From Nitrospirota bacterium (GTDB taxonomy: Bacteria > Nitrospirota > Thermodesulfovibrionia > Thermodesulfovibrionales > SM23-35), in contig JACAFE010000020.1 of assembly GCA_013388435.1 (NCBI GenBank), forward strand, positions 1 through 42,870: a DNA stretch of 42,870 bases, in the 5' to 3' direction. Of this stretch, positions 965-12,377 are shown piece after piece (the stretch's first letter is position 1; each line of letters starts with the position of its first letter). The translations under genes were made by a program, and so were the position numbers. Under the pieces are notes generated by a model that did not search any database, had not been told where the DNA came from, and saw nothing but the letters and a program-made list of their open reading frames with translations.

Positions 965-1846
965 TTAAATAAGCCCTGCCCTTTCCATAATAATTGGGAC
1001 TTTGTCCTCCATTCCTATAGCCATTATATGAACACCATCACAAATATTATCATCCTTTAACTGCTTTATGTGACGGGCTGCTATATTTAAACCTGTATCG
1101 AGTGCTTTTTCTTTTCCTGCTGATTTTAATTCTTCAATTAATTCTTTTGGAACCCTTATTCCAGGCACATTTTTATTCATAAAATTAGCCATACCTGCTG
1201 ATTTCAAGACAACTATACCTGCAAGAATTTTAACAGGAAATTTTCTGGCTTCTTTCATAAAATTTTTAAAAGCCTCTATATCGTAAATTGCCTGTGTCTG
1301 GAAAAACTTTGCGCCTGCTTTTACCTTTTTTTCGAATTTAAGAAGTTGAGGTTCTACAGGGTCCGATTCAGGTGTGACAACAGCTCCATAAAAGAAATTC
1401 GTAGAACCCTTAAGTTCATTGCCTGCCATATCTTTGCCATTATTTAATTTTTCAACTATCTGCAATAGCTGAACAGATTCTACATCATAAACCGGTTTTG
1501 CATCCCTGTGATCCCCAGCTGTTACATAATCACCGGTCATACAAAGAACATTACGAATTCCGAGAACATATGCGCCCAATAAATCCGATTGTAATCCTAT
1601 TCTATTTCTATCCCTGCACGTCATCTGCAAAATTGGTTCAAGTCCATTTTCAAGAGCTATTTTGCATATAGCCATGGAACATATTCTCATAACAGCTGAT
1701 TGATTATCTGTTACATTAGCTGCATCAATCTTGCCTTTAAGAAGTTCAATGTGATGAATAACCTCATGAATATCAGTGCCCTTTGGAGGACCTATCTCTG
1801 CTGTGACTACAAATTTTCCTGATTCAAGAGCTTCTTTAAATGACAT
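965..1846 (-). CDS. metF: Methylene-tetrahydrofolate reductase, MetF-type flavoprotein subunit
   Basis: The 293-residue product is a methylene-THF reductase TIM barrel. The N-terminal TAEIGPPKG motif holds the catalytic Glu (E17), and the TGD motif at residues 104-106 corresponds to the folate-contacting region. It would reduce methylene-THF to methyl-THF using FAD. The length matches the MetF subunits of acetogens that work with a separate MetV, and metV lies in the same operon. The ATG at 1846 has an AGGAGG site with about 6 nt spacing; this site lies in the 14-bp gap after purD. This is the last gene of the folE-metF operon. The function is well supported, while the physiological direction and electron donor are inferred from the neighbours. 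Confidence 0.93.
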   Translation of the reverse strand: MSFKEALESGKFVVTAEIGPPKGTDIHEVIHHIELLKGKIDAANVTDNQSAVMRICSMAICKIALENGLEPILQMTCRDRNRIGLQSDLLGAYVLGIRNVLCMTGDYVTAGDHRDAKPVYDVESVQLLQIVEKLNNGKDMAGNELKGSTNFFYGAVVTPESDPVEPQLLKFEKKVKAGAKFFQTQAIYDIEAFKNFMKEARKFPVKILAGIVVLKSAGMANFMNKNVPGIRVPKELIEELKSAGKEKALDTGLNIAARHIKQLKDDNICDGVHIMAIGMEDKVPIIMERAGLI

Positions 1847-1860
1847 TTTAGCCTCCTGTT

Positions 1861-3162
1861 TTATTCTTTACCAATATCTGTTCTATACCTTATTCCTTCA
1901 TATTTTATTTTCTGAATATTTTCATAAGCTATTGTTCTTGCTTCCTGCAATGTTTTGCCTTTACCAATAACATGCAACACTCTTCCTCCATCTGTTACAA
2001 GCCCTTTAGTTTCAGAGAAATTTACGCCTGCAAAGAAAATCTTACAATTCTTTTTATCGATGTTTTCCAGTCCGGAGATTGGATAGCCTTTTCCATATCT
2101 TGCAGGATAACCCGGATACCAGCCTTTGCTTTTTCCATTTTTCATCTGCCTTGTTCTTCCCTGTGCTGCAACAACATCGCAATAATAATCCTGACTCCAT
2201 TCAATTTTGTTATCTTTCAAAACACCATTGATAATCTGATAGCTTATGTCACTTAATGGCGTAATCAGTCGTGGAAGAATTACTTCTGCTTCAGGGTCTC
2301 CGAGTCTCACGTTCGCTTCAAGAAGATGAGGCACATTATCAACGAGCATCAGACCGCAATAGAGGATTCCTTTATAAGGAATACCTTCTTTTTCTTTAAA
2401 ACCTTTAATTAAAGGCATAGCAACTTTTTCAGACACAAGTTCTGTAAGTTCCCTGCCTTCAAGTCTGTGAGGTGAATAAGCACCCATTCCTCCGGTATTT
2501 AATCCTTCGTCATTATCATATGCTCTTTTATAATCCTGTGCAACAGGCATAGGAGATATATTTTCACCATCAGTAAATACAAAAAAAGAAATCTCTGTTC
2601 CAAAAAGTCTTTTTTCAATTACAACTTTATTACCCGCTTCACCAAATTCTTTTTTAATCATAATCTGTTCAATTGCATTTAATGCTTCATCTGTATTTGA
2701 ACATACTATTGAGCCTTTCCCGGCAGCAAGACCATCTGCTTTAACCACAACAGGATACCCGATCTTTTTAATATAATCCTTTGCAAAATCCGGATTATCA
2801 AAAACTTCAAATTCAGCAACCGGGACTCCTATTTCCCTGCATAGCAGCTTTGTATAAGCTTTGCTACCTTCAAGAATAGCAGCTCTTTTTTGAGGTCCCA
2901 CAATAGGCATTTTTTCAGAATTAAAAAGATCAACGATACCATTTGTTAGCGGACTTTCAGGTCCTACAAAAGTTAAGTCAACCTTTTCTTTTTTTGCAAG
3001 TAAAAGAAATTCCTCATTTGTCCTTGCATTTTCACACCTTATCTCTGTCGCTATCCCGGCATTTCCTGGAGCGCAAATAACTTCCTTAACATTAGGATCA
3101 TTTTTAAACTGCCATGCTATTGAATGTCCCCTGCCCCCGCTGTCAACAACAAGTACTTTCAT
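1861..3162 (-). CDS. purD: Phosphoribosylamine-glycine ligase (PurD), somewhat divergent
   Basis: At 433 residues this is a full-length ATP-grasp enzyme of the GAR synthetase family (purine biosynthesis step 2). Visible signatures are PGNAGIA, the ATP-grasp loop DGLAAGKG and LNTGGMGAYSP. Several normally conserved spots differ: the N-terminal loop reads GGRGHS where GGREHA is usual, the metal/ATP motif reads EANVRLGDPEAE rather than EFNxRFGDPE, and a basic insertion of about 14 residues (QGRTRQMKNGKSKGW) precedes the GYPARYGKG segment. It sits between metV and metF, an odd place for a purine gene, with the next gene (DUF2520) ending where it starts. It is probably the genuine purD, but a paralogous ATP-grasp ligase cannot be excluded. 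Confidence 0.85.
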   Translation of the reverse strand: MKVLVVDSGGRGHSIAWQFKNDPNVKEVICAPGNAGIATEIRCENARTNEEFLLLAKKEKVDLTFVGPESPLTNGIVDLFNSEKMPIVGPQKRAAILEGSKAYTKLLCREIGVPVAEFEVFDNPDFAKDYIKKIGYPVVVKADGLAAGKGSIVCSNTDEALNAIEQIMIKKEFGEAGNKVVIEKRLFGTEISFFVFTDGENISPMPVAQDYKRAYDNDEGLNTGGMGAYSPHRLEGRELTELVSEKVAMPLIKGFKEKEGIPYKGILYCGLMLVDNVPHLLEANVRLGDPEAEVILPRLITPLSDISYQIINGVLKDNKIEWSQDYYCDVVAAQGRTRQMKNGKSKGWYPGYPARYGKGYPISGLENIDKKNCKIFFAGVNFSETKGLVTDGGRVLHVIGKGKTLQEARTIAYENIQKIKYEGIRYRTDIGKE

Positions 3163-4053
3163 TTATATTTTTTTTCCTTTCAGATAGAGATTGAATATAT
3201 CATTTATTTTCTTTGCATCATGATTTTTCAAAGTACCTTTTTCAATTCCTAATTTCACCGTGTATTTCCCAAGTTCACAATATAAATTAACCAATTCATT
3301 CTTTATTTTTGAGATAGATTTCAGATGATCATTTATTATTACTGAATCACCTCTTGCGATTGGACCTGTTAAAGCATCTGGTACACCGAGTTTATCAATA
3401 TTTTTTACAGTACCATGTATTAAAGGCATAAGAGCTCTTAGGGCATCTTTTCTTTCAATACCCGCCATCTCAAATAGTTCTATTCCGAATCCGACTGTAG
3501 CAACAAGGAAGTTCGAGGCAGCGCATGCTCCTGCGTGATAAAGAGTTTTTTTATTAATATCAAGCCTTATTTCTTTTCCTCGAAGAGCTTGAATTATTTC
3601 CCTCGCTGTCTTGAGTGCTTTTTCATGTCCTTCTATAAAAAAATATGAGCCTGAAAGTCTTTTTACAGCTTCCTTCACATTGGCAAGACTTTGCAATGGA
3701 TGAAAAGACGCGGTGTATGCGCCCTGTTTTCTTGCTGAATTCAATACCTTTGAAGATAATGCTCCACATGTATGAAATACCACTGTACCAGGTTTAAAAC
3801 CGCCTGCTTTTGCTATATTGTCGCATGCTTTTTTAATAGATTTATCAGAAGTTGTTATAAAAACAATATCAGCTTTCTTGGATGCATCTGCGAGATCAGT
3901 TGTAGAATAGCCCTGTCCAATAAATTCAAGTGCTCTGTTTGCAGAATCTATTGTTCTGCTCGCAATCGCTGCGATAGTATATCCTTTTTTACTAAGAAGA
4001 TAACCTAAAGAAGTGCCAACTACTCCTGCACCTATAATAGAAACTATTTTCAT
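3163..4053 (-). CDS. Rossmann-fold / DUF2520 oxidoreductase-like protein
   Basis: This is a 296-residue protein. An N-terminal dinucleotide-binding fold carries IGAGVVGTSLG (residues 7-17), and a helical C-terminal half starts near a DUF2520-type segment (SFHPLQSL, then HAGACAASNFLVA). The layout is like ketopantoate reductase or 6-phosphogluconate dehydrogenase, but the substrate of the DUF2520 family is not established. It is directly abutted by purD (its stop ends one base before the purD ATG). No Shine-Dalgarno is visible before the ATG at 4053, so the start is less certain; the GxGxxG motif right after it supports it. Its place between metV and purD hints at a one-carbon or purine link, but that is inference. 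Confidence 0.8.
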   Translation of the reverse strand: MKIVSIIGAGVVGTSLGYLLSKKGYTIAAIASRTIDSANRALEFIGQGYSTTDLADASKKADIVFITTSDKSIKKACDNIAKAGGFKPGTVVFHTCGALSSKVLNSARKQGAYTASFHPLQSLANVKEAVKRLSGSYFFIEGHEKALKTAREIIQALRGKEIRLDINKKTLYHAGACAASNFLVATVGFGIELFEMAGIERKDALRALMPLIHGTVKNIDKLGVPDALTGPIARGDSVIINDHLKSISKIKNELVNLYCELGKYTVKLGIEKGTLKNHDAKKINDIFNLYLKGKKI

Positions 4054-4076: not shown

Positions 4077-4730
4077 TCAAATACCTGCGTTAACTTTTCC
4101 CGGTCTCATATTTTTAGACCAATCCTTGGGATTATTAATATTTTTTAACTCCTCAAGCTTATTAAGTTCTTTCATTTTCTCGTATATAAGAAGCCATGCA
4201 CAGGGAGTTTCAGGATTTGCCTCGCACTTTCCGTTTTTCGAACCGCCACACGGACCGTTTAATAATCCTTTTGGACATCTTGTTACAGGACATATTCCGC
4301 CTGTTAAAGAAAGGATGCAATCACCACAAGCAGAGCACATCTCGATAAAATTTCCTGCTTCATCAGAAACACCGATAAACTTTGTATCCATCGCAGGAAA
4401 TACTGGAATTTTTCTGAATTTTTCCGAAAGAGTCTGAACACCTGCCCCACATGCCATTGAAAGAACAGCATCAGATTCTTCTATATCTTTATTAATCTGT
4501 TCTAAAAATTTTGGTTCGCATTGTCTCGAAATGGTCTTGCCTTTTAAAATTCTCTTTTCCTTATCATTACGACCCGAAATACGCAATGCTGAAGATAGAA
4601 GTTCTACCTGTTTCTGTCCTCCTGTAAGGCAGACACTTACGCATTCACCACAACCAACAATAAAAATCTTTCTAAAACTTTTAATCATTTCATTTATATC
4701 TGCTAAAGATTTAATTTCTGCTATTACCAT
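4077..4730 (-). CDS. metV: Methylene-tetrahydrofolate reductase C-terminal-type subunit MetV
   Basis: The 217-residue product matches the MetV family (MTHFR C-terminal domain) that pairs with MetF in acetogenic bacteria. It is very Cys-rich. It begins with GCGECVSVC (C27, C30, C34), then CGAG, CSACGDC, CPVTRCPKG, and the family hallmark LNGPCGGSKNGKC; such residues bind Fe-S and zinc and are thought to pass electrons to the MetF flavin. The ATG at 4730 has an AGAAGGTGA site. It lies 35 bp after the flavoprotein with ferredoxin domains. MetV lacks its own NAD(P)H site, so the upstream flavoprotein is a reasonable electron source (inference). Confidence 0.9.
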   Translation of the reverse strand: MVIAEIKSLADINEMIKSFRKIFIVGCGECVSVCLTGGQKQVELLSSALRISGRNDKEKRILKGKTISRQCEPKFLEQINKDIEESDAVLSMACGAGVQTLSEKFRKIPVFPAMDTKFIGVSDEAGNFIEMCSACGDCILSLTGGICPVTRCPKGLLNGPCGGSKNGKCEANPETPCAWLLIYEKMKELNKLEELKNINNPKDWSKNMRPGKVNAGI

Positions 4731-4765
4731 GCTGTCACCTTCTTTTATTGAAATATTCTTAAATT

Positions 4766-6703
4766 TTATTCATAAACTACGGTCAATTGTTCAGGATCCA
4801 GACCGCTTTCTTTGAGTATCCTCTTTGCTTCATTTACATGCTTATTCAGCCATTTATTGCATTCTTTAAAATGACAATCATTATCTTTACATGCAAGAAT
4901 TTTAACCTTTTTACAACCTTCTTCAAATGGTTTTATAAATTGAGAAATATCAATTCTTGCAATGCAAGGTTTACCTATAGATGTCTCTTTTGATGTTTCA
5001 GTTCCAGGTTTTCCTATTTTCTTATATTGACAGTAAAATTCTATTTCAGAGTTATTACCCGAAATATTTTTTGCTGAATTTATCGCATTTTGAAGTTTAA
5101 TTATACTCTGTTCTTTTGTGTCAAGTTTTATATCAATTGCAAGTGCGGGACACTCTGATGCGCAAATACCGCATGCCTGACACTGACTTATATCAATCTT
5201 TGGCTTATATTCAGAAGCAACAGGAACATTATAAGGACAAACACGAACACAATTAAGACAGCTTACGCATTCATCAGAAATTTCTGCTCCAGCCCCGCAA
5301 TTAAGGCAACGTTGAGCTTCTGAAATTGCCTGTTCCCATGTAAATCCAAGATTGACTTCGTCAAAATTTTTGATTCTTTCTTCAACAGGCAATTGCGCCA
5401 TTTTTTGTTGAGGACGTTTTTCTATGAGAGGAATAATTTTTTCATCAAGAGGTTTCAACACAGTTGGCTCTTCATTTTCTTTTGGCGGTAGACTTCTTAA
5501 ATACCTATGTATTGCTATTGCAGCTCTTTTACCTGAAGCAATTGCATCAATTACACTCATGGGTCCGCTTACAACATCACCACCAGCAAATACTCCTTTA
5601 AGATTAGTGGTTCCTGTATCGTCTTTTACAACTATAGTGCCTCTTTTTCCTGATATTTTCTCTATATCCTTTATATCATCTGTTCTCGGATTATATCCTA
5701 TAGCTAATATTACAGCATCTGCCATTACTTCAAATTCAGAGTCTTCAACAGGTACTAATCTTCTTCTTCTTGATTCATCTGCGACAAAACGCATTTCCGT
5801 GCAGCGGATTTTTTCAATCCTTCCTCTTCCGATAAACTCTAATGGAGCGGAAAGATAACGGAATTTCACGCCTTCACTTTCAGCTTCTTCAACTTCAATT
5901 CTTCCAGCAGGCATTTCATTTATAGTTCGTCTGTATAAAACTGTAACATCAGGAGAACCAAGTCTTATACATGTGCGAGCAGCATCAATTGCAGTATGTC
6001 CGCCTCCAATGATTACAACTTTTTGTCCAAGATATGGTCTTTGTCCTCTGCTAACCTGCTTTAGAAATTCTACGGCAGTAATAACACCGGGTAGTTCTAT
6101 TCCCCTGCATTTCGGAAACAAGCTTTTTTCACTTCCAAGAGCAATAAAAACTGCCTGATACTCCTTCATAAGTTCATCTACTGTAATATCTTTTCCGAGA
6201 GCAGTGTTTGTTCTTGCCTCAACACCCAATGACAATATACGTTCAATATCATTCATTACAACATTCTTGGGCAATCTATATTCAGGAACACCACGTGTCA
6301 TCATTCCGCCTAATTCATCATGAGCTTCATACACAACAACATTGTATCCGAGCAATGCAAGGTCATGGGCTGCTGTTAAACCTGATGGGCCACCTCCTAC
6401 AATAGCTATTTTCTCGGTATAATAAGGTCCTGTTTTAAAAATATCTTTTTGTTCCATAGTTTCATCAGAAGCAAATCTTTTTAATGAAGCTATAGCAATT
6501 GGCTCATCAATTTGTCCGCGCCTGCATGCAGATTCACATGCGCGTGTGCATATTCTTCCACAGACAGAAGGAAAAGGATTTACCTCACGGATTATTCTTA
6601 TTGCTTCAGAAACATCACCTTTTGAAATCGCATAGACATAACCACGAACATCAGTACGAATAGGGCAAGCCGCCTGACAGGGAGGCATAGCAGTAATGCT
6701 CAT
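4766..6703 (-). CDS. GltD-like FAD/NAD(P) oxidoreductase fused to 2[4Fe-4S] ferredoxin and a degenerate MvhD-like tail
   Basis: The product is about 645 residues. The N-terminal region has the Cys sets of GltD/DPD-type Fe-S domains (CQAACP; CGRICTRACESACRRG). Next come an FAD site GGGPSGLTAAHDLALLG near residue 105, an NAD(P) site GGGHTAIDAA near 240, and the FAD-closing GGDVVSGPMSVIDAIASG. A ferredoxin segment with CVSCLNCVRVCP and CQACGICASECP follows near 480-520. The last 80 residues (CQY, then ACKDNDCHFKECNKW and ESGLDPEQL) resemble the MvhD/FrhD iron-sulfur subunit with part of its Cys set lost. The start is the ATG at 6703, nine bases after AAAGGAGG; an upstream in-frame TTG at 6712 is too close to that site. 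It probably moves electrons between NAD(P)H, ferredoxin and the neighbouring MetV/MetF. The domain calls are firm; the partner is inferred. Confidence 0.85.
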   Translation of the reverse strand: MSITAMPPCQAACPIRTDVRGYVYAISKGDVSEAIRIIREVNPFPSVCGRICTRACESACRRGQIDEPIAIASLKRFASDETMEQKDIFKTGPYYTEKIAIVGGGPSGLTAAHDLALLGYNVVVYEAHDELGGMMTRGVPEYRLPKNVVMNDIERILSLGVEARTNTALGKDITVDELMKEYQAVFIALGSEKSLFPKCRGIELPGVITAVEFLKQVSRGQRPYLGQKVVIIGGGHTAIDAARTCIRLGSPDVTVLYRRTINEMPAGRIEVEEAESEGVKFRYLSAPLEFIGRGRIEKIRCTEMRFVADESRRRRLVPVEDSEFEVMADAVILAIGYNPRTDDIKDIEKISGKRGTIVVKDDTGTTNLKGVFAGGDVVSGPMSVIDAIASGKRAAIAIHRYLRSLPPKENEEPTVLKPLDEKIIPLIEKRPQQKMAQLPVEERIKNFDEVNLGFTWEQAISEAQRCLNCGAGAEISDECVSCLNCVRVCPYNVPVASEYKPKIDISQCQACGICASECPALAIDIKLDTKEQSIIKLQNAINSAKNISGNNSEIEFYCQYKKIGKPGTETSKETSIGKPCIARIDISQFIKPFEEGCKKVKILACKDNDCHFKECNKWLNKHVNEAKRILKESGLDPEQLTVVYE

Positions 6704-6744
6704 GTTAGTCAACCTCCTTTAAATTAATATATACTTTTATACTA

Positions 6745-6782
6745 ACCTAAAAAAAACGCAATTTACCTAAAAAATGCAATTT
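6745..6782 (-). repeat. Imperfect tandem repeat of 20 and 18 bp
   Basis: Two adjacent copies, 6745-6764 and 6765-6782 (plus strand acctaaaaaaaacgcaattt and acctaaaaaatgcaattt), differ by two A residues and one C/T change. They start at the folD stop codon and fill much of the folD to flavoprotein gap. No hairpin or promoter role is obvious. Confidence 0.7.
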
Positions 6783-7647
6783 ATATAATTCCACCGTGCA
6801 TTTTGGCTGACTGAACAGTATTTTTCATTAACATAACAATAGTCATTGGACCCACACCACCTGGGACAGGAGTTATTGCTTTTGCTTTTTCTTTTACAGA
6901 TTCAAAATCAACATCACCACAGAGCCCTGATTCAAGTCTGTTTACACCAACATCTATTACTACAACCCCTTCTTTTACCATATCAGCAGTAATAGCTTTT
7001 GGTTTACCTACTGCAACTATTAATATATCAGCCCTTTTTGTATGAGAAGCAAGGTCTTTTGTTCCTGTATGACAGATTGTAACAGTAGCATTCCCGCCTT
7101 TTTTCTGAACAAGCATATTCGCAATTGGCTTTCCAACAATATTGCTTCTTCCAACTACAACCACATCAGCCCCATTTGTTTCTGTGTTACTGCGTTTTAA
7201 AAGTTCAAGTATTCCATTAGGTGTGCATGGCAGAAAGCATGGCTCACCGAGCATCATTTTGCCCACATTTACCGGATGAAAACCATCAACATCCTTAGAA
7301 GGATTAATTGCATATAGAACATTTGTTTCATTTATTCCTTTTGGCAGAGGCAATTGAACTAAAATTCCATGTATTTTGGGATTATTATTCAGTTTATCGA
7401 TCAAAGATAAAAGTTCTGCCTCACCCGTGTTACCAGGAAGATCGATTCTTTCTGAATAAATTCCGAGCTCCTTGCATGCTTTTTCTTTAGCTCCAACATA
7501 AACTTTTGATGCTTCATTATCACCTACGAGAATTGTAGCTAATCCTGGTATAATATTATGTTTTTCCTTGAGGTTAGCTATTTCAACTTTAAGTTCTTCT
7601 TTAATTTGTTTTGAGATTTCCGAACCCTTAATTAACTCTGCAGACAT
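6781..7647 (-). CDS. folD: Bifunctional methylene-THF dehydrogenase / methenyl-THF cyclohydrolase
   Basis: The 288-residue product is FolD. It contains the catalytic region YVGAKEKACKELGI (Tyr and Lys of the active site), the substrate loop VQLPLP, the DVDGFHPVN motif, GRSNIVGKP of the NAD(P) domain and the C-terminal PVPGGVGPMT. It links formyl-THF and methylene-THF, the step before MetF/MetV in the methyl branch. The ATG at 7647 follows AAAGGAG. It is the second gene of the folE operon, 39 bp after folE; about 78 bp holding a tandem repeat separates it from the flavoprotein ATG. Confidence 0.96.
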   Translation of the reverse strand: MSAELIKGSEISKQIKEELKVEIANLKEKHNIIPGLATILVGDNEASKVYVGAKEKACKELGIYSERIDLPGNTGEAELLSLIDKLNNNPKIHGILVQLPLPKGINETNVLYAINPSKDVDGFHPVNVGKMMLGEPCFLPCTPNGILELLKRSNTETNGADVVVVGRSNIVGKPIANMLVQKKGGNATVTICHTGTKDLASHTKRADILIVAVGKPKAITADMVKEGVVVIDVGVNRLESGLCGDVDFESVKEKAKAITPVPGGVGPMTIVMLMKNTVQSAKMHGGII

Positions 7648-7686: not shown

Positions 7687-8250
7687 TTAGTCCCTTTTTT
7701 TGATTAATTCAAGTAACTCTTCGCGAGTAGATTGCTTTGATCTGAATATACCTCTAACAGCAGATGTTACAGTTCTTGCACCTGGTTTTTTTACCCCTCT
7801 CATACTTATGCATAAATGTTCAGCATCTATTATTACCATTGCGCCCTTAGGTTTAAGTCTTTCCATTATCAAATCAGCAAGTTGAGTTGTCAATCTCTCT
7901 TGAACCTGCAGTCTTTTTGCCAATATTTCAACTGATTTAACAAGTTCGCTCAATCCAACAATTTTGCCTCCAGAAGGTATATAAGCTATATGAACTTTAC
8001 CAAAAAAGGGGATCATGTGATGCTCACAAAAAGAATAAAAAGGGATATCTTTTAACAGTACCATTTCATCATGGCTTTCGCCTTCTATTGCTTTAAGCAA
8101 TTCTTCTGTTGGTGTTTCAAGTCCTGAAAATATTTCTTCATACATCCTTGCGACCCTTTCTGGAGTTTCACGAATTCCTGGTCTTTCAGGATCTTCACCA
8201 ATGCCTTCAAGTATAAGTCTTATACCTTTTTCAATTTTTCTTAAGTCCAT
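7687..8250 (-). CDS. folE: GTP cyclohydrolase I
   Basis: At 187 residues this is a normal-length FolE. The zinc ligands are in [10 protein letters not shown] and HLCISMRGV, and the RLQVQERLT segment forms part of the GTP site. It converts GTP to 7,8-dihydroneopterin triphosphate, the first step to folate. It is the first gene of the C1 operon, with its own strong promoter 29-57 bp upstream and an AAGGAA ribosome site, so cofactor synthesis is co-transcribed with folD, metV and metF. Confidence 0.96.
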
Positions 8251-8328: not shown

Positions 8329-9141
8329 TCATTTATCAATAATTCCTGTAAATATTTTTTTAGTTTCTTTTAATAATTCTTTATGAATATATGGATTTCC
8401 TGCAATAATATTTCCATAAAACAAAAAGTCATTTCCTCCACCAAATCCTGTGATTACTCCTCCTGCTTCTTTTATAATTATAGAACCTGCAGCAATATCC
8501 CATGGACTGAGCCCTATTTCAAAAAAACCATCACATCTACCACAAGCAATATAGGCAAGATCTATTGCCGCAGAACCAGCTCTTCTTATATCACTAACTT
8601 CTAAAAATATATTTTTAAAAAGTTTTAAATAATATTCAATAAATTGTTTATTTCTAAATGGGAAACCTGTTGTTATTAATGAATATTTTAAATTATTTAT
8701 TTTAGAGACATTTATTTTTTCCCCATTGAGAAAAGAACCTTTTCCTTTAATAGCTGTAAATATTTCTTTTCTCATCGGGTCATATATCACACCCAATATA
8801 ATTTTACCTTTATATTCAAGAGCAATAGAAATTGAAAAAACAGGATACTGGTGAATATAATTTGTAGTACCATCAAGTGGGTCTATAATCCAGCGATATG
8901 AATTACTATTTCTATCTTTTATTGATTCTTCTGTATAAAAAGCATGGGATGGGTATTTTTTTCTTATCGTATTTATTATTATTTTTTCAGATTCAGTATC
9001 AACTTTTGTTACAAAATCAGATATTTGTTTTTGACTAATATCAGATATTGATAATTTTCCAAGTTTGCTTATAATAAAATCTCCTGCTAACATTGCTGAT
9101 TCAATAGCAATATTCAGGAAATCATCTACTTTCATGGGCAT
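8329..9141 (-). CDS. Inositol monophosphatase family protein
   Basis: The 270-residue product has the family's metal-binding signatures: TEES near residue 70 (usually GEE[ST]), IDPLDGTTNYIHQYP, and the C-terminal SPWDIAAGSIIIKEAGG. It dephosphorylates inositol phosphate or a related sugar phosphate, with Mg2+ bound by the DPLDGT aspartates. It overlaps the end of the upstream cyclo-ligase gene by 20 bp; two start Mets (9141 and 9135) are possible. It ends the hisC operon. Members can also act on fructose-1,6-bisphosphate, PAP or NADP(H), and the sequence alone does not choose. Confidence 0.9.
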   Translation of the reverse strand: MPMKVDDFLNIAIESAMLAGDFIISKLGKLSISDISQKQISDFVTKVDTESEKIIINTIRKKYPSHAFYTEESIKDRNSNSYRWIIDPLDGTTNYIHQYPVFSISIALEYKGKIILGVIYDPMRKEIFTAIKGKGSFLNGEKINVSKINNLKYSLITTGFPFRNKQFIEYYLKLFKNIFLEVSDIRRAGSAAIDLAYIACGRCDGFFEIGLSPWDIAAGSIIIKEAGGVITGFGGGNDFLFYGNIIAGNPYIHKELLKETKKIFTGIIDK

Positions 9142-9697
9142 TAATTATCCTCTGATCTGTAATAATTATATCAACTTTAATATCATGAGGCTCTGAAGGA
9201 ATCTTCTGAACTATTTGCTCTTCATACGAAAGTGCAATAACAGGTGAATTAGTCTTTTTCTCTGAGAGAATTATATCATAATAACCTCCGCCATAACCTA
9301 TTCTATTACCATAAATATCAAAACATACACCCGGAACTATAATTAAGTCAACTTCATTTATTCCGACTTCTCTACTTATATCAGGTATTGGCTCATATAT
9401 GCCCATATAACCTGAAGACAGATCTTTTATACTATTAATTTCATAAAGATATAACTTTCGTTTTTTCTTTTCAACTTTTGGGAGTATAACCCTTTTTCCT
9501 TTATTCAATGCCTTTTCTATTATAAAAAAAGTATCTACTTCAGATCTGAAAGAAAAATAAATAAATATGGTATCTGCTTTTATAAACTCAGGTAGAGAAA
9601 ATAATTTATTTCTTATGCTTTCATCTTTTGAAAGCCTATTGTTTTCAGAAATCAAATCCCGTTTGATAATAATTTCTTTTCTTAATTTATCCTTCAA
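9122..9697 (-). CDS. 5-formyltetrahydrofolate cyclo-ligase
   Basis: This 191-residue member of the 5-FTHF cyclo-ligase family uses ATP to turn 5-formyl-THF into methenyl-THF. Family marks are an N-terminal LRKEI..KRDLI helix, VPGVCFDIYGNRIGYGGGYYD, and the C-terminal EPHDIKVD. I place the start at a TTG (9697-9695) that overlaps the TGA of the upstream exchanger gene (TTGA), a coupled start; a longer frame back to 9751 would lie inside the exchanger gene and add residues the family does not need. It returns a dead-end folate to the pool used by FolD and MetF. Confidence 0.88.
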   Translation of the reverse strand: MKDKLRKEIIIKRDLISENNRLSKDESIRNKLFSLPEFIKADTIFIYFSFRSEVDTFFIIEKALNKGKRVILPKVEKKKRKLYLYEINSIKDLSSGYMGIYEPIPDISREVGINEVDLIIVPGVCFDIYGNRIGYGGGYYDIILSEKKTNSPVIALSYEEQIVQKIPSEPHDIKVDIIITDQRIINAHESR

Positions 9698-10725
9698 ATT
9701 ATATTTCCCGAAACAAGAAGAATCGCATATAAAAAATAAAGACTGCCACATACAATTAAAGTTAAAGGTGAAAGCCTCTTTCTTATATTAAGTTCGGTAA
9801 GCATAATAATTGATGATGTTATCGCAAATATTGCTGAAAGCAATGCCATTCCAGTAATCTTCCATTCTGTGAATAAAAGTCCTACTGAGACTGGAAATGT
9901 TGATTGAAAAACCATTGCACCTGTAATATTTCCGAGAGCGAGTGTATCTCTTCCCTTCCATGTCCATGTAACGCTGTTGAATTTTTCTGGAAGTTCTGTT
10001 GCAACAGGAGCAAGAAGTAACGCAAAAATCAAAGGGTCCATGCCAAATCTTATTGAAATATACTCCAGACTTTCTACAAAAGTATGAGCTCCTTTAATCA
10101 TAATTGATAATGCCCCGATAACCTGTAAAAGAATAATAATTATTGAAGGATTTTCAGTTCCTGAAAATCCAATATATTTCATTAACTTAACTAAATAGAT
10201 TTCCTCAGAATGTTCAATATTTCCGCTTTCGCCTGTTAAAGTTCTGTAAATGTAAAATATATAACCACAAATTAAAATAATCGAGATAGAAACCAAAAAA
10301 ATATGGGATCTTCCAAATATTGCAGGCAGACTCACAGCAAAAGAATACATCGCAAGAAAAAATATTAGATCCCTTACGGTTGATTTATATTCTACTTTTA
10401 ATTCAAATTTCCTTTTTTTTCTGAGGTAAGCAATCGTAACTGTAATTCCTACAAGAAACATTGCTATTGTGGAAAGCATAAAAGGAGCTCCAAGAATAGC
10501 ACCTACACCTATTTCCTTTGCGGACTTTCCAGCATAGAAAAAAATAGCAACCATGGGCAAAATTGTTTCAGGCAATGCAGTTCCTACAGCAGCAAGAATA
10601 CTCCCGACAACAGCCTGAGATAGTGAGAATTTCTTTCCGAGAGCTTCAATTCCGTTTGTAAAAAATTCGGCTGATACAAGAATTATTAAAAGTCCGAGAA
10701 TTAGAAATAAGATTTCTGACAACAT
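9694..10725 (-). CDS. CaCA-family sodium/calcium exchanger-like membrane protein
   Basis: The 343-residue product has about ten hydrophobic segments. Two alpha-repeat motifs are clear: VGTALPETILPM in the first half and APVATELPEKFNSV in the second, each with the acidic residue that binds the cation. It is therefore a Ca2+ (or other cation)/Na+ or H+ antiporter in the inner membrane. The start overlaps the upstream Usp stop by one base (TAATG). There is no clear functional tie to the histidine and folate genes around it. Confidence 0.88.
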   Translation of the reverse strand: MLSEILFLILGLLIILVSAEFFTNGIEALGKKFSLSQAVVGSILAAVGTALPETILPMVAIFFYAGKSAKEIGVGAILGAPFMLSTIAMFLVGITVTIAYLRKKRKFELKVEYKSTVRDLIFFLAMYSFAVSLPAIFGRSHIFLVSISIILICGYIFYIYRTLTGESGNIEHSEEIYLVKLMKYIGFSGTENPSIIIILLQVIGALSIMIKGAHTFVESLEYISIRFGMDPLIFALLLAPVATELPEKFNSVTWTWKGRDTLALGNITGAMVFQSTFPVSVGLLFTEWKITGMALLSAIFAITSSIIMLTELNIRKRLSPLTLIVCGSLYFLYAILLVSGNII

Positions 10726-11612: not shown

Positions 11613-12377
11613 TTAAATAAGTTTATCTTTAAGTTTTCTTACAGCTTCAACCGTTTTAGGGCAAAGATAAAAAGGTGATTTACCTTTAATATCAGCTTCC
11701 ATAACATCATTGTCAAATTCTATAAATCCAATTAATTTCATATTTGAAAGATTTTCTTTTATAAACTTAATGTCATTATCGCTTCTTATTTTATTAGCTA
11801 CTACAAATACATTTTTTATTCCAAGTTCTTCTGCCATCTTATGAACAGTCTTTGCTGTCTGCAGGCTTCTCTGTCCGGGTTCTACAACAACAACAAAAGC
11901 ATCAACATATTCAGATGTTCCTCTTGTTAAATGTTCAATACCTGCCTCCATGTCAACAATAACCACTTCACTTCTTTTTGTAATAAGGTGTTTTAAAAGA
12001 CTTCTTAGTAAAACATTCTCAGGACAATAACATCCCGATGATGCTGCCTTAACTTTACCCATAATCAACAATGTTATTCCGTTTATCCTGTATCCGATTT
12101 CTTCAGGAAGATCATCAACTTTTGGATTAAGTTTATATATTCCAGCCGAAGTTCCAGGCTTTGCACCTGTTCTCTGTTCAATTAAATCCGCCATCTCTGT
12201 TAATGGTTTTATCCTAAAAATTTCCTGAGCAGGAATGCCGAGTGCTGATCCAAGATTTGCATCAGGGTCTGCGTCAACTGCGATAACTTTCTTTTTTTCT
12301 TCTGAAAACAGATGTGCGAGAACAGCAGCAAGTGTTGTTTTTCCTACCCCACCCTTACCTGTTATTGCTATTTTCAT
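11613..12377 (-). CDS. cooC: CooC-type nickel-insertion ATPase
   Basis: This is a 254-residue SIMIBI P-loop ATPase. It has a deviant Walker A GKGGVGKT (7-14) and DADPDANLG after strand 2. The Cys-x-Cys pair at C116/C118 (GCYCPEN) is the dimer-interface metal site of CooC, which loads nickel into CO dehydrogenase. No CODH gene is in the window. The start overlaps the hisB stop by four bases (ATGA). Finding it with folate C1 genes suggests a CODH/acetyl-CoA synthase elsewhere in the genome. CooC and related Ni-maturation ATPases are hard to separate, but the CxC supports CooC. Confidence 0.9.
   Translation of the reverse strand: MKIAITGKGGVGKTTLAAVLAHLFSEEKKKVIAVDADPDANLGSALGIPAQEIFRIKPLTEMADLIEQRTGAKPGTSAGIYKLNPKVDDLPEEIGYRINGITLLIMGKVKAASSGCYCPENVLLRSLLKHLITKRSEVVIVDMEAGIEHLTRGTSEYVDAFVVVVEPGQRSLQTAKTVHKMAEELGIKNVFVVANKIRSDNDIKFIKENLSNMKLIGFIEFDNDVMEADIKGKSPFYLCPKTVEAVRKLKDKLI

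Follow-up and report, generated by a model that had tools for sequence, protein, structure and literature searches.

The 42,870-nucleotide stretch that we analysed (hereafter the window; contig JACAFE010000020.1 of a Nitrospirota bacterium, GTDB family SM23-35) carries a folate operon in which metV and metF, encoding a MetV-MetF methylene-tetrahydrofolate reductase (MTHFR), lie on one strand with short gaps. In this operon, a gene that ends 35 bp before metV encodes a single polypeptide, here called the fusion, that joins a GltD-type oxidoreductase, a two-cluster ferredoxin domain and a tail resembling FlpD/MvhD (Table 1). An initial annotation, made from the letters alone, had recognised both this three-part architecture and its position before metV, and both held up under domain searches. 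The gene probably begins with the ATG at 6703, the start given in that annotation, rather than with the TTG at 6712, because close homologues begin at that methionine; residue numbers below refer to the longer, 648-residue form.

In Pfam searches, Fer4_20 covers residues 9-89, Pyr_redox_2 residues 101-394 and the ferredoxin dicluster approximately residues 481-526. The C-terminal tail matches FlpD (PF02662) at residues 579-645 with 51.3 bits against a gathering cut-off of 22.3 (E=1.5e-13), over positions 31-97 of the 123 in the profile. The GltD fold contains Rossmann motifs for flavin adenine dinucleotide (FAD) and NAD(P). The structures nearest to an AlphaFold model of the fusion (mean predicted local distance difference test score 86.4) are NfnABC, StnC and NfnL (Z 38 to 28), all of them GltD-type NAD(P)H-binding subunits; the EAQRCLNCG cluster motif stands after the GltD domain in the fusion and before it in NfnL. 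The fusion does not reach the NCBIfam cut-offs for GltA/GltD and was rejected as a glutamate synthase subunit. Nor is it identified as an HdrA: its best HdrA2 match is confined to the ferredoxin-FlpD tail and scores 92.6 bits against a cut-off of 1100.

Table 1. Features of the window discussed in the text (aa, amino acids).
Feature	Position	Strand	Size or residues	Basis
MetF, methylenetetrahydrofolate reductase catalytic subunit	965..1846	-	293 aa	Pfam
PurD-like protein, between DUF2520 and metF	1861..3162	-		identified from sequence
DUF2520 Rossmann-type protein, between metV and purD	3163..4053	-		Pfam
MetV	4077..4730	-	217 aa	DUF5981/PF12225, E=9e-38 (Pfam)
MetV, DUF5981 part	4116-4400	-		
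MetV, N-terminal domain	~4371-4730	-		
Fusion protein, GltD - ferredoxin dicluster - FlpD	4766..6712	-	648 aa from TTG at 6712; 645 aa from ATG at 6703	
Fusion, FlpD/MvhD-like C-terminal domain	4769..5047	-	Cys 561, 583, 608, 613	
Fusion, two-cluster ferredoxin domain	5135..5272	-	Cys 482, 485, 488, 492 and 511, 514, 517, 521	
Fusion, EAQRCLNCG motif	5285..5329	-	Cys469, Cys472	
Fusion, stretch bearing nucleotide motif GGGHTAIDAARTCIRLGSPDVTVLYRRTINEMPA, NADPH-type YRR	5531..6412	-		
Fusion, N-terminal [4Fe-4S] region, GltD type (Fer4_20)	6446..6688	-	Cys 12, 16, 51, 55, 59, 63	
Fusion, Lys at the StnC K170 / NfnB Glu position	6479-6481	-	Lys78	
FolD-like protein, upstream edge of slot	6781..7647	-		identified from sequence
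FolE-like protein, upstream neighbour conserved in relatives	7687..8250	-		identified from sequence
5-formyl-tetrahydrofolate cyclo-ligase-like protein, conserved upstream	9122..9751	-		identified from sequence
CooC-like P-loop ATPase, conserved upstream	11613..12377	-		Pfam

We found about 50 relatives of the fusion, from at least four phyla, and nearly all of them adjoin metV. Full-length relatives occur in about a dozen genomes of the window's family (50-93% identity), at 35-39% identity in other families of the order, in another class and in a distant family of the phylum, and also in named genomes of Chloroflexota, Coriobacteriia and Phycisphaerales. In nearly every locus with enough DNA, metV follows the fusion directly, usually in the order folD-fusion-metV-metF; this direct adjacency was observed within the window's family, across other families and classes, and among Chloroflexota, Actinomycetota and Planctomycetota. 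In one genome (G151) metV lies 3 kb further on in the same direction, and two further fusions stop at contig edges. The initial annotation had staked its proposal on this association: rather than occurring widely apart from metV, the fusion is tied to it across phyla. We found no description of such a protein in the literature, within a search limited to open-licence papers.

Our survey covered 101 related genomes, 95 of them with metV, and the DNA upstream of metV was read in most. The operon cooC - cyclo-ligase - folE - folD - (slot) - metV - metF is widely retained, and the space between folD and metV behaves as a slot for interchangeable genes. When filled, the slot holds the fusion, HdrCBA-MvhD with or without a GltD domain, a NiFe hydrogenase, or NuoF-type modules. 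The Hdr variants are HdrC-HdrB-HdrA (~1015 aa)-MvhD and, as in Moorella, HdrC-HdrB-(GltD-HdrA, ~1480 aa)-MvhD (L055, L056, L067), while the hydrogenase variant comprises a small and a large subunit (L029, L034). In one genome of the window's family, NuoG-, NuoE- and NuoF-like genes precede the metV-metF pair (L180:6689-9886(-)), and in named Thermodesulfobacteriota and Chloroflexota the gene immediately ahead of metV encodes a NuoF-GltD fusion of 1036-1069 aa (L087, L100, L137, L138). This NuoF-GltD fusion is a candidate for another MetVF partner, a role for which we found no description in the open-licence literature searched. Some genomes of the window's family contain two metVF sets that differ in their modules (L029, L034, L036). 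That the fusion occupies the place of Hdr-MvhD in its relatives supports the idea, put forward in the initial annotation, of a MetV-linked electron module made of a single polypeptide.

The partner in the slot is matched by MetV itself. The MetV tree splits deeply into two clades (Shimodaira-Hasegawa-like approximate likelihood ratio test support 99). With contig-end cases omitted, a gene bearing FlpD adjoins MetV in 65 of 66 clade II cases and in none of the 54 of clade I; in the sole clade II exception (L081), HdrA-type genes lie immediately after metVF. At L040, a GltD gene that has neither ferredoxin nor FlpD parts adjoins a clade I MetV. Most of the columns and indels by which the clades differ fall within the first two thirds of MetV, its N-terminal part. 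Because the FlpD partner tracks the MetV clade and the separating columns are N-terminal, these results point to FlpD as the piece that would meet the MetV N-terminal domain. A separate idea, that this domain is itself a relative of FlpD, arose from a similar beta-alpha order in models and was rejected: profile comparison gave a probability of 3%, and Foldseek returned no match at E below 0.001. The best VIA-align rows for the domain were Dph2 and periplasmic binding proteins, and no relatives of MetV were found by sequence in the PDB.

Together, these results make it likely, in our judgement, that the fusion is the electron-input subunit of the MetV-MetF reductase and that it carries electrons along a linear path from NAD(P)H, or NADPH in the window's family, to MetVF. 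Neither MetV nor MetF has a conserved NADH site of its own (PMC8760232). In the scheme that we propose, NAD(P)H would reduce the FAD of the GltD part by hydride transfer, and single electrons would then move through the two [4Fe-4S] clusters of that part, the ferredoxin dicluster and an iron-sulphur cluster in the FlpD domain. Entry into MetV would probably be through its N-terminal domain, and from there the electrons would reach the MetF flavin, where methylene-tetrahydrofolate (methylene-THF) would be reduced. The FlpD domain would serve as an adaptor that fits the clade II type of MetV.

The choice of coenzyme is suggested by the GltD tree, on which well-supported branches force at least four of the six changes that the fusion label requires. 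The window-family group carries the motif YRRTxxEMPA, sharing YRR with NfnL and Stn, and a second large group of fusions carries CLExxxEMPA and adjoins the GltD domain of Moorella HdrA, which is also CLE. NfnL and Stn use NADPH (PMC10482914), and the HdrA of Moorella thermoacetica that carries this GltD domain oxidises NADH (PMC9430772). On the strength of these shared motifs, NADPH is predicted for the group of the window's fusion and NADH for the 'CLE' group. A single origin of all fusions was tested and rejected: an approximately unbiased (AU) test on the GltD domain excludes one clade for the two groups (p-AU 0.0028). The design was thus probably assembled more than once, although replacement of the GltD domain within one ancestral fusion is a possible alternative.

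Several observations weigh against this interpretation. For two fusions (G282 and G446), the DNA that was read contains no metV. About 45 loci have nothing in the slot, and several lineages manage with MetVF and no slot gene. MvhD has five cysteine positions (a C-x2-C pair, PC, GC/U with cysteine or selenocysteine, and a fifth cysteine), of which the fusion keeps four; the second cysteine of the C-x2-C pair is gone, in agreement with the incomplete set reported in the initial annotation. C561, C583, C608 and C613 are conserved in 42, 41, 41 and 41 of 42 homologues, respectively, and because these four positions are conserved a cluster, which would be a [2Fe-2S] cluster as in FlpD/MvhD, is likely retained. 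The reading of YRR as a mark of NADPH and of CLE as a mark of NADH is drawn from relatives only. Finally, the match between MetV clade and FlpD is essentially one split on the MetV tree, so that 65 of 66 and 0 of 54 overstate the independence of the cases.

The initial annotation had also raised coupled or bifurcating reduction. By flavin-based bifurcation or confurcation, NAD(P)H would reduce both methylene-THF and ferredoxin, with the dicluster as the low-potential exit. The GltD fold also makes the bifurcating subunit NfnB, the fusion does contain a ferredoxin domain with two clusters, and bifurcation has been proposed for Hdr-type relatives that occupy this slot (PMC9430772). The residues near the flavin argue otherwise. 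In StnC, whose FAD is reported to be non-bifurcating, K170 replaces the glutamate of NfnB at the FAD-proximal cluster (PMC10482914); in all 42 fusion homologues the corresponding position, K78 in the window, is likewise lysine beside the FAD-proximal [4Fe-4S] cluster and never an NfnB-type glutamate. The fusion has a single FAD site and lacks an HdrA core and HdrBC, and no NfnA-like partner was seen in the operon. Established potentials (about -200 mV for methylene-THF) make electron flow from NAD(P)H downhill, and therefore no coupling is needed. Given the StnC-like lysine, the single FAD site and the missing HdrA core, bifurcation by the fusion is not supported and we consider it unlikely; linear flow is the reading that we infer.

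More doubtful still is entry of electrons as reduced ferredoxin, which would feed MetV through the dicluster while the GltD part traded surplus electrons with NADP; in the oxidative direction the route would run the other way. Ferredoxin is the in vitro donor shown for plain MetVF enzymes (PMC8760232), and the genome has an RnfC gene. The same enzymes, however, take ferredoxin without a partner, and therefore a GltD fusion would be superfluous; the slot is, moreover, empty in many relatives. We give very little credence to a third proposal, in which the FlpD tail docks on the genome's HdrA-MvhAG, the fusion serves that complex and its place beside metV reflects co-regulation only. As the initial annotation had noted, the window contains no hdr or rnf gene: matches to PF02754 and PF13375, RnfC_N matches and other PF02662 matches are all on other contigs. 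Elsewhere the genome does encode an HdrA-MvhDGA cluster, as well as a protein of 746 residues that bears an FlpD domain. In addition, one Chloroflexota operon mixes the two systems in the order HdrA - MvhD - fusion - MetV - HdrCB (L273:3180-11000(+)). That HdrA-MvhDGA cluster is already served by its own MvhD, however, most fusion loci have an adjacent metV and no hdr genes, and it is the MetV clade that tracks FlpD. Lastly, an ordinary GltD-like NAD(P)H oxidoreductase beside metV by chance is scarcely credible: GltD parts by themselves form a very common family, but the link to metV is retained across phyla, through at least two apparently independent assemblies.

Published MTHFRs are of types I-IV: MetF, MetVF, MetVF-RnfC2 and MetVF-HdrCBA-MvhD (PMC8760232). 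The window operon has the MetV-MetF core, and the fusion-MetVF system is best read as standing beyond these types. Type II is MetVF with no further subunit and no NAD(P)H activity; the window operon has a further gene. Type IV, known from Moorella and Sporomusa (PMC9430772, PMC8760232), has the same core and likewise places an FlpD/MvhD unit immediately ahead of metV; its Moorella version also resembles the fusion in having a GltD domain for NAD(P)H, there on HdrA. The window operon, however, lacks HdrB, HdrC and an HdrA core with bifurcating-type flavins, and GltD, ferredoxin and FlpD form one chain in the fusion; in addition, MvhD of this phylum's Hdr clusters has an in-frame TGA at the position of the fusion's Cys608. 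The mixed Chloroflexota operon is possibly an intermediate between the two designs. Type III of Acetobacterium woodii (PMC8760232) also combines MetVF with one subunit that oxidises a pyridine nucleotide, with no ferredoxin reduction seen, but that subunit is the RnfC-like RnfC2, none of which lies beside the window's metVF, rather than a GltD-FAD protein with an FlpD domain. The window's system appears type III-like in its working, with a nucleotide-oxidising partner, and built partly of type IV pieces, namely GltD and FlpD.

Parallels extend to other flavoproteins. StnC of StnABC and the NfnABC large subunit (PMC10482914; 8oh5, 9bov, 9n5u) share with the fusion the GltD domain, the displaced RCxxC motif, the lysine at the FAD-proximal cluster and NADPH input to a separate enzyme, the last of which is predicted for the fusion; StnC has NuoG/FdhF parts and feeds the StnAB flavin, whereas the fusion has ferredoxin and FlpD parts. 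NfnB/NfnL (5jca, 4ylf) share the GltD fold and the NADPH motif YRR, but NfnB is bifurcating with glutamate at the cluster, RCxxC is N-terminal, and there is no ferredoxin or FlpD tail. HdrA type Ia (HdrA2) is a flavoprotein with a C-terminal FlpD, and HdrA type III has an added GltD domain; their core is the TrxR-like HdrA instead of GltD, and their partner is HdrBC (PMC12054007). The same paper describes HdrA with an added GltD and HdrA fused to MvhD; it does not describe a fusion that lacks HdrA (PMC12054007).

We lean, by a narrow preference, towards a broader view in which this is a fifth kind of MetVF enzyme: MetV would be a socket for interchangeable input modules and FlpD the plug for one MetV clade. 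Fusions would have evolved more than once to feed in NADPH or NADH, alongside sister modules that connect Hdr complexes, parts of NADH dehydrogenase or a hydrogenase. Which donor supplies MetVF-type MTHFRs in nature is disputed, and the answer decides whether acetogenesis pays in ATP (PMC8760232). If our reading is correct, the fusion represents a new way to power this step. A compact NAD(P)H-linked version, common among uncultured metVF bacteria, would offer a soluble, expressible test case, reveal how much energy these bacteria gain and demonstrate that donors to MetV can be exchanged.

Downstream of metV in the window are the genes for the DUF2520 protein, a PurD-like protein and MetF. Upstream, on the same strand, are genes identified from sequence as folD-like, folE-like, inositol-phosphatase-like and 5-formyl-tetrahydrofolate cyclo-ligase-like, then two further genes and that of the CooC-like ATPase. 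The genome has one copy of metV, and the Wood-Ljungdahl pathway is likely present, because an AcsB-type protein is encoded. Most genomes of the window's family retain a DUF2520 protein between metV (or metF) and purD.

Other loci in the survey yielded further observations. In Spirochaetota and Bacillota (L080, L093, L098), the gene immediately ahead of a clade II metV encodes a protein of 437-508 aa that ends in an FlpD domain; it adjoins an HdrA-like gene, and at L080 the protein also has a ferredoxin dicluster (Pfam); this may be a further FlpD-bearing partner of MetV. A contig labelled Candidatus Nitrosotalea carries an Hdr/GltD cluster almost identical to one of Methanophagales (L063 and L064) and is probably misbinned. 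The hydrogenase genes in the slot (L029:14158-17212(-), L034:1520-4568(+)), of the [NiFe]/[NiFeSe] type, lie about 30 bp before a second metV-metF pair; the small subunit has no obvious twin-arginine signal, the L029 proteins match the NiFeSe family, and these loci possibly encode an H2-to-methylene-THF reductase. Between two metVF sets lie two response regulators and a PAS histidine kinase (L029:11058-13161(-), L034:5560-7470(+), L180:3775-5685(-)), identified by Pfam at L029 and by matching size and order at L034 and L180, which may switch between two versions of the MTHFR. Finally, the in-frame TGA in mvhD genes of this phylum's Hdr clusters stands at the GC position before the last cysteine (e.g. 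FAAG-TGA-LKGQCHYLEG), as would be expected for selenocysteine, and was found at L036, L055, L056, L190, L194, L195, L197, L198, L201, L209, L210 and L214.
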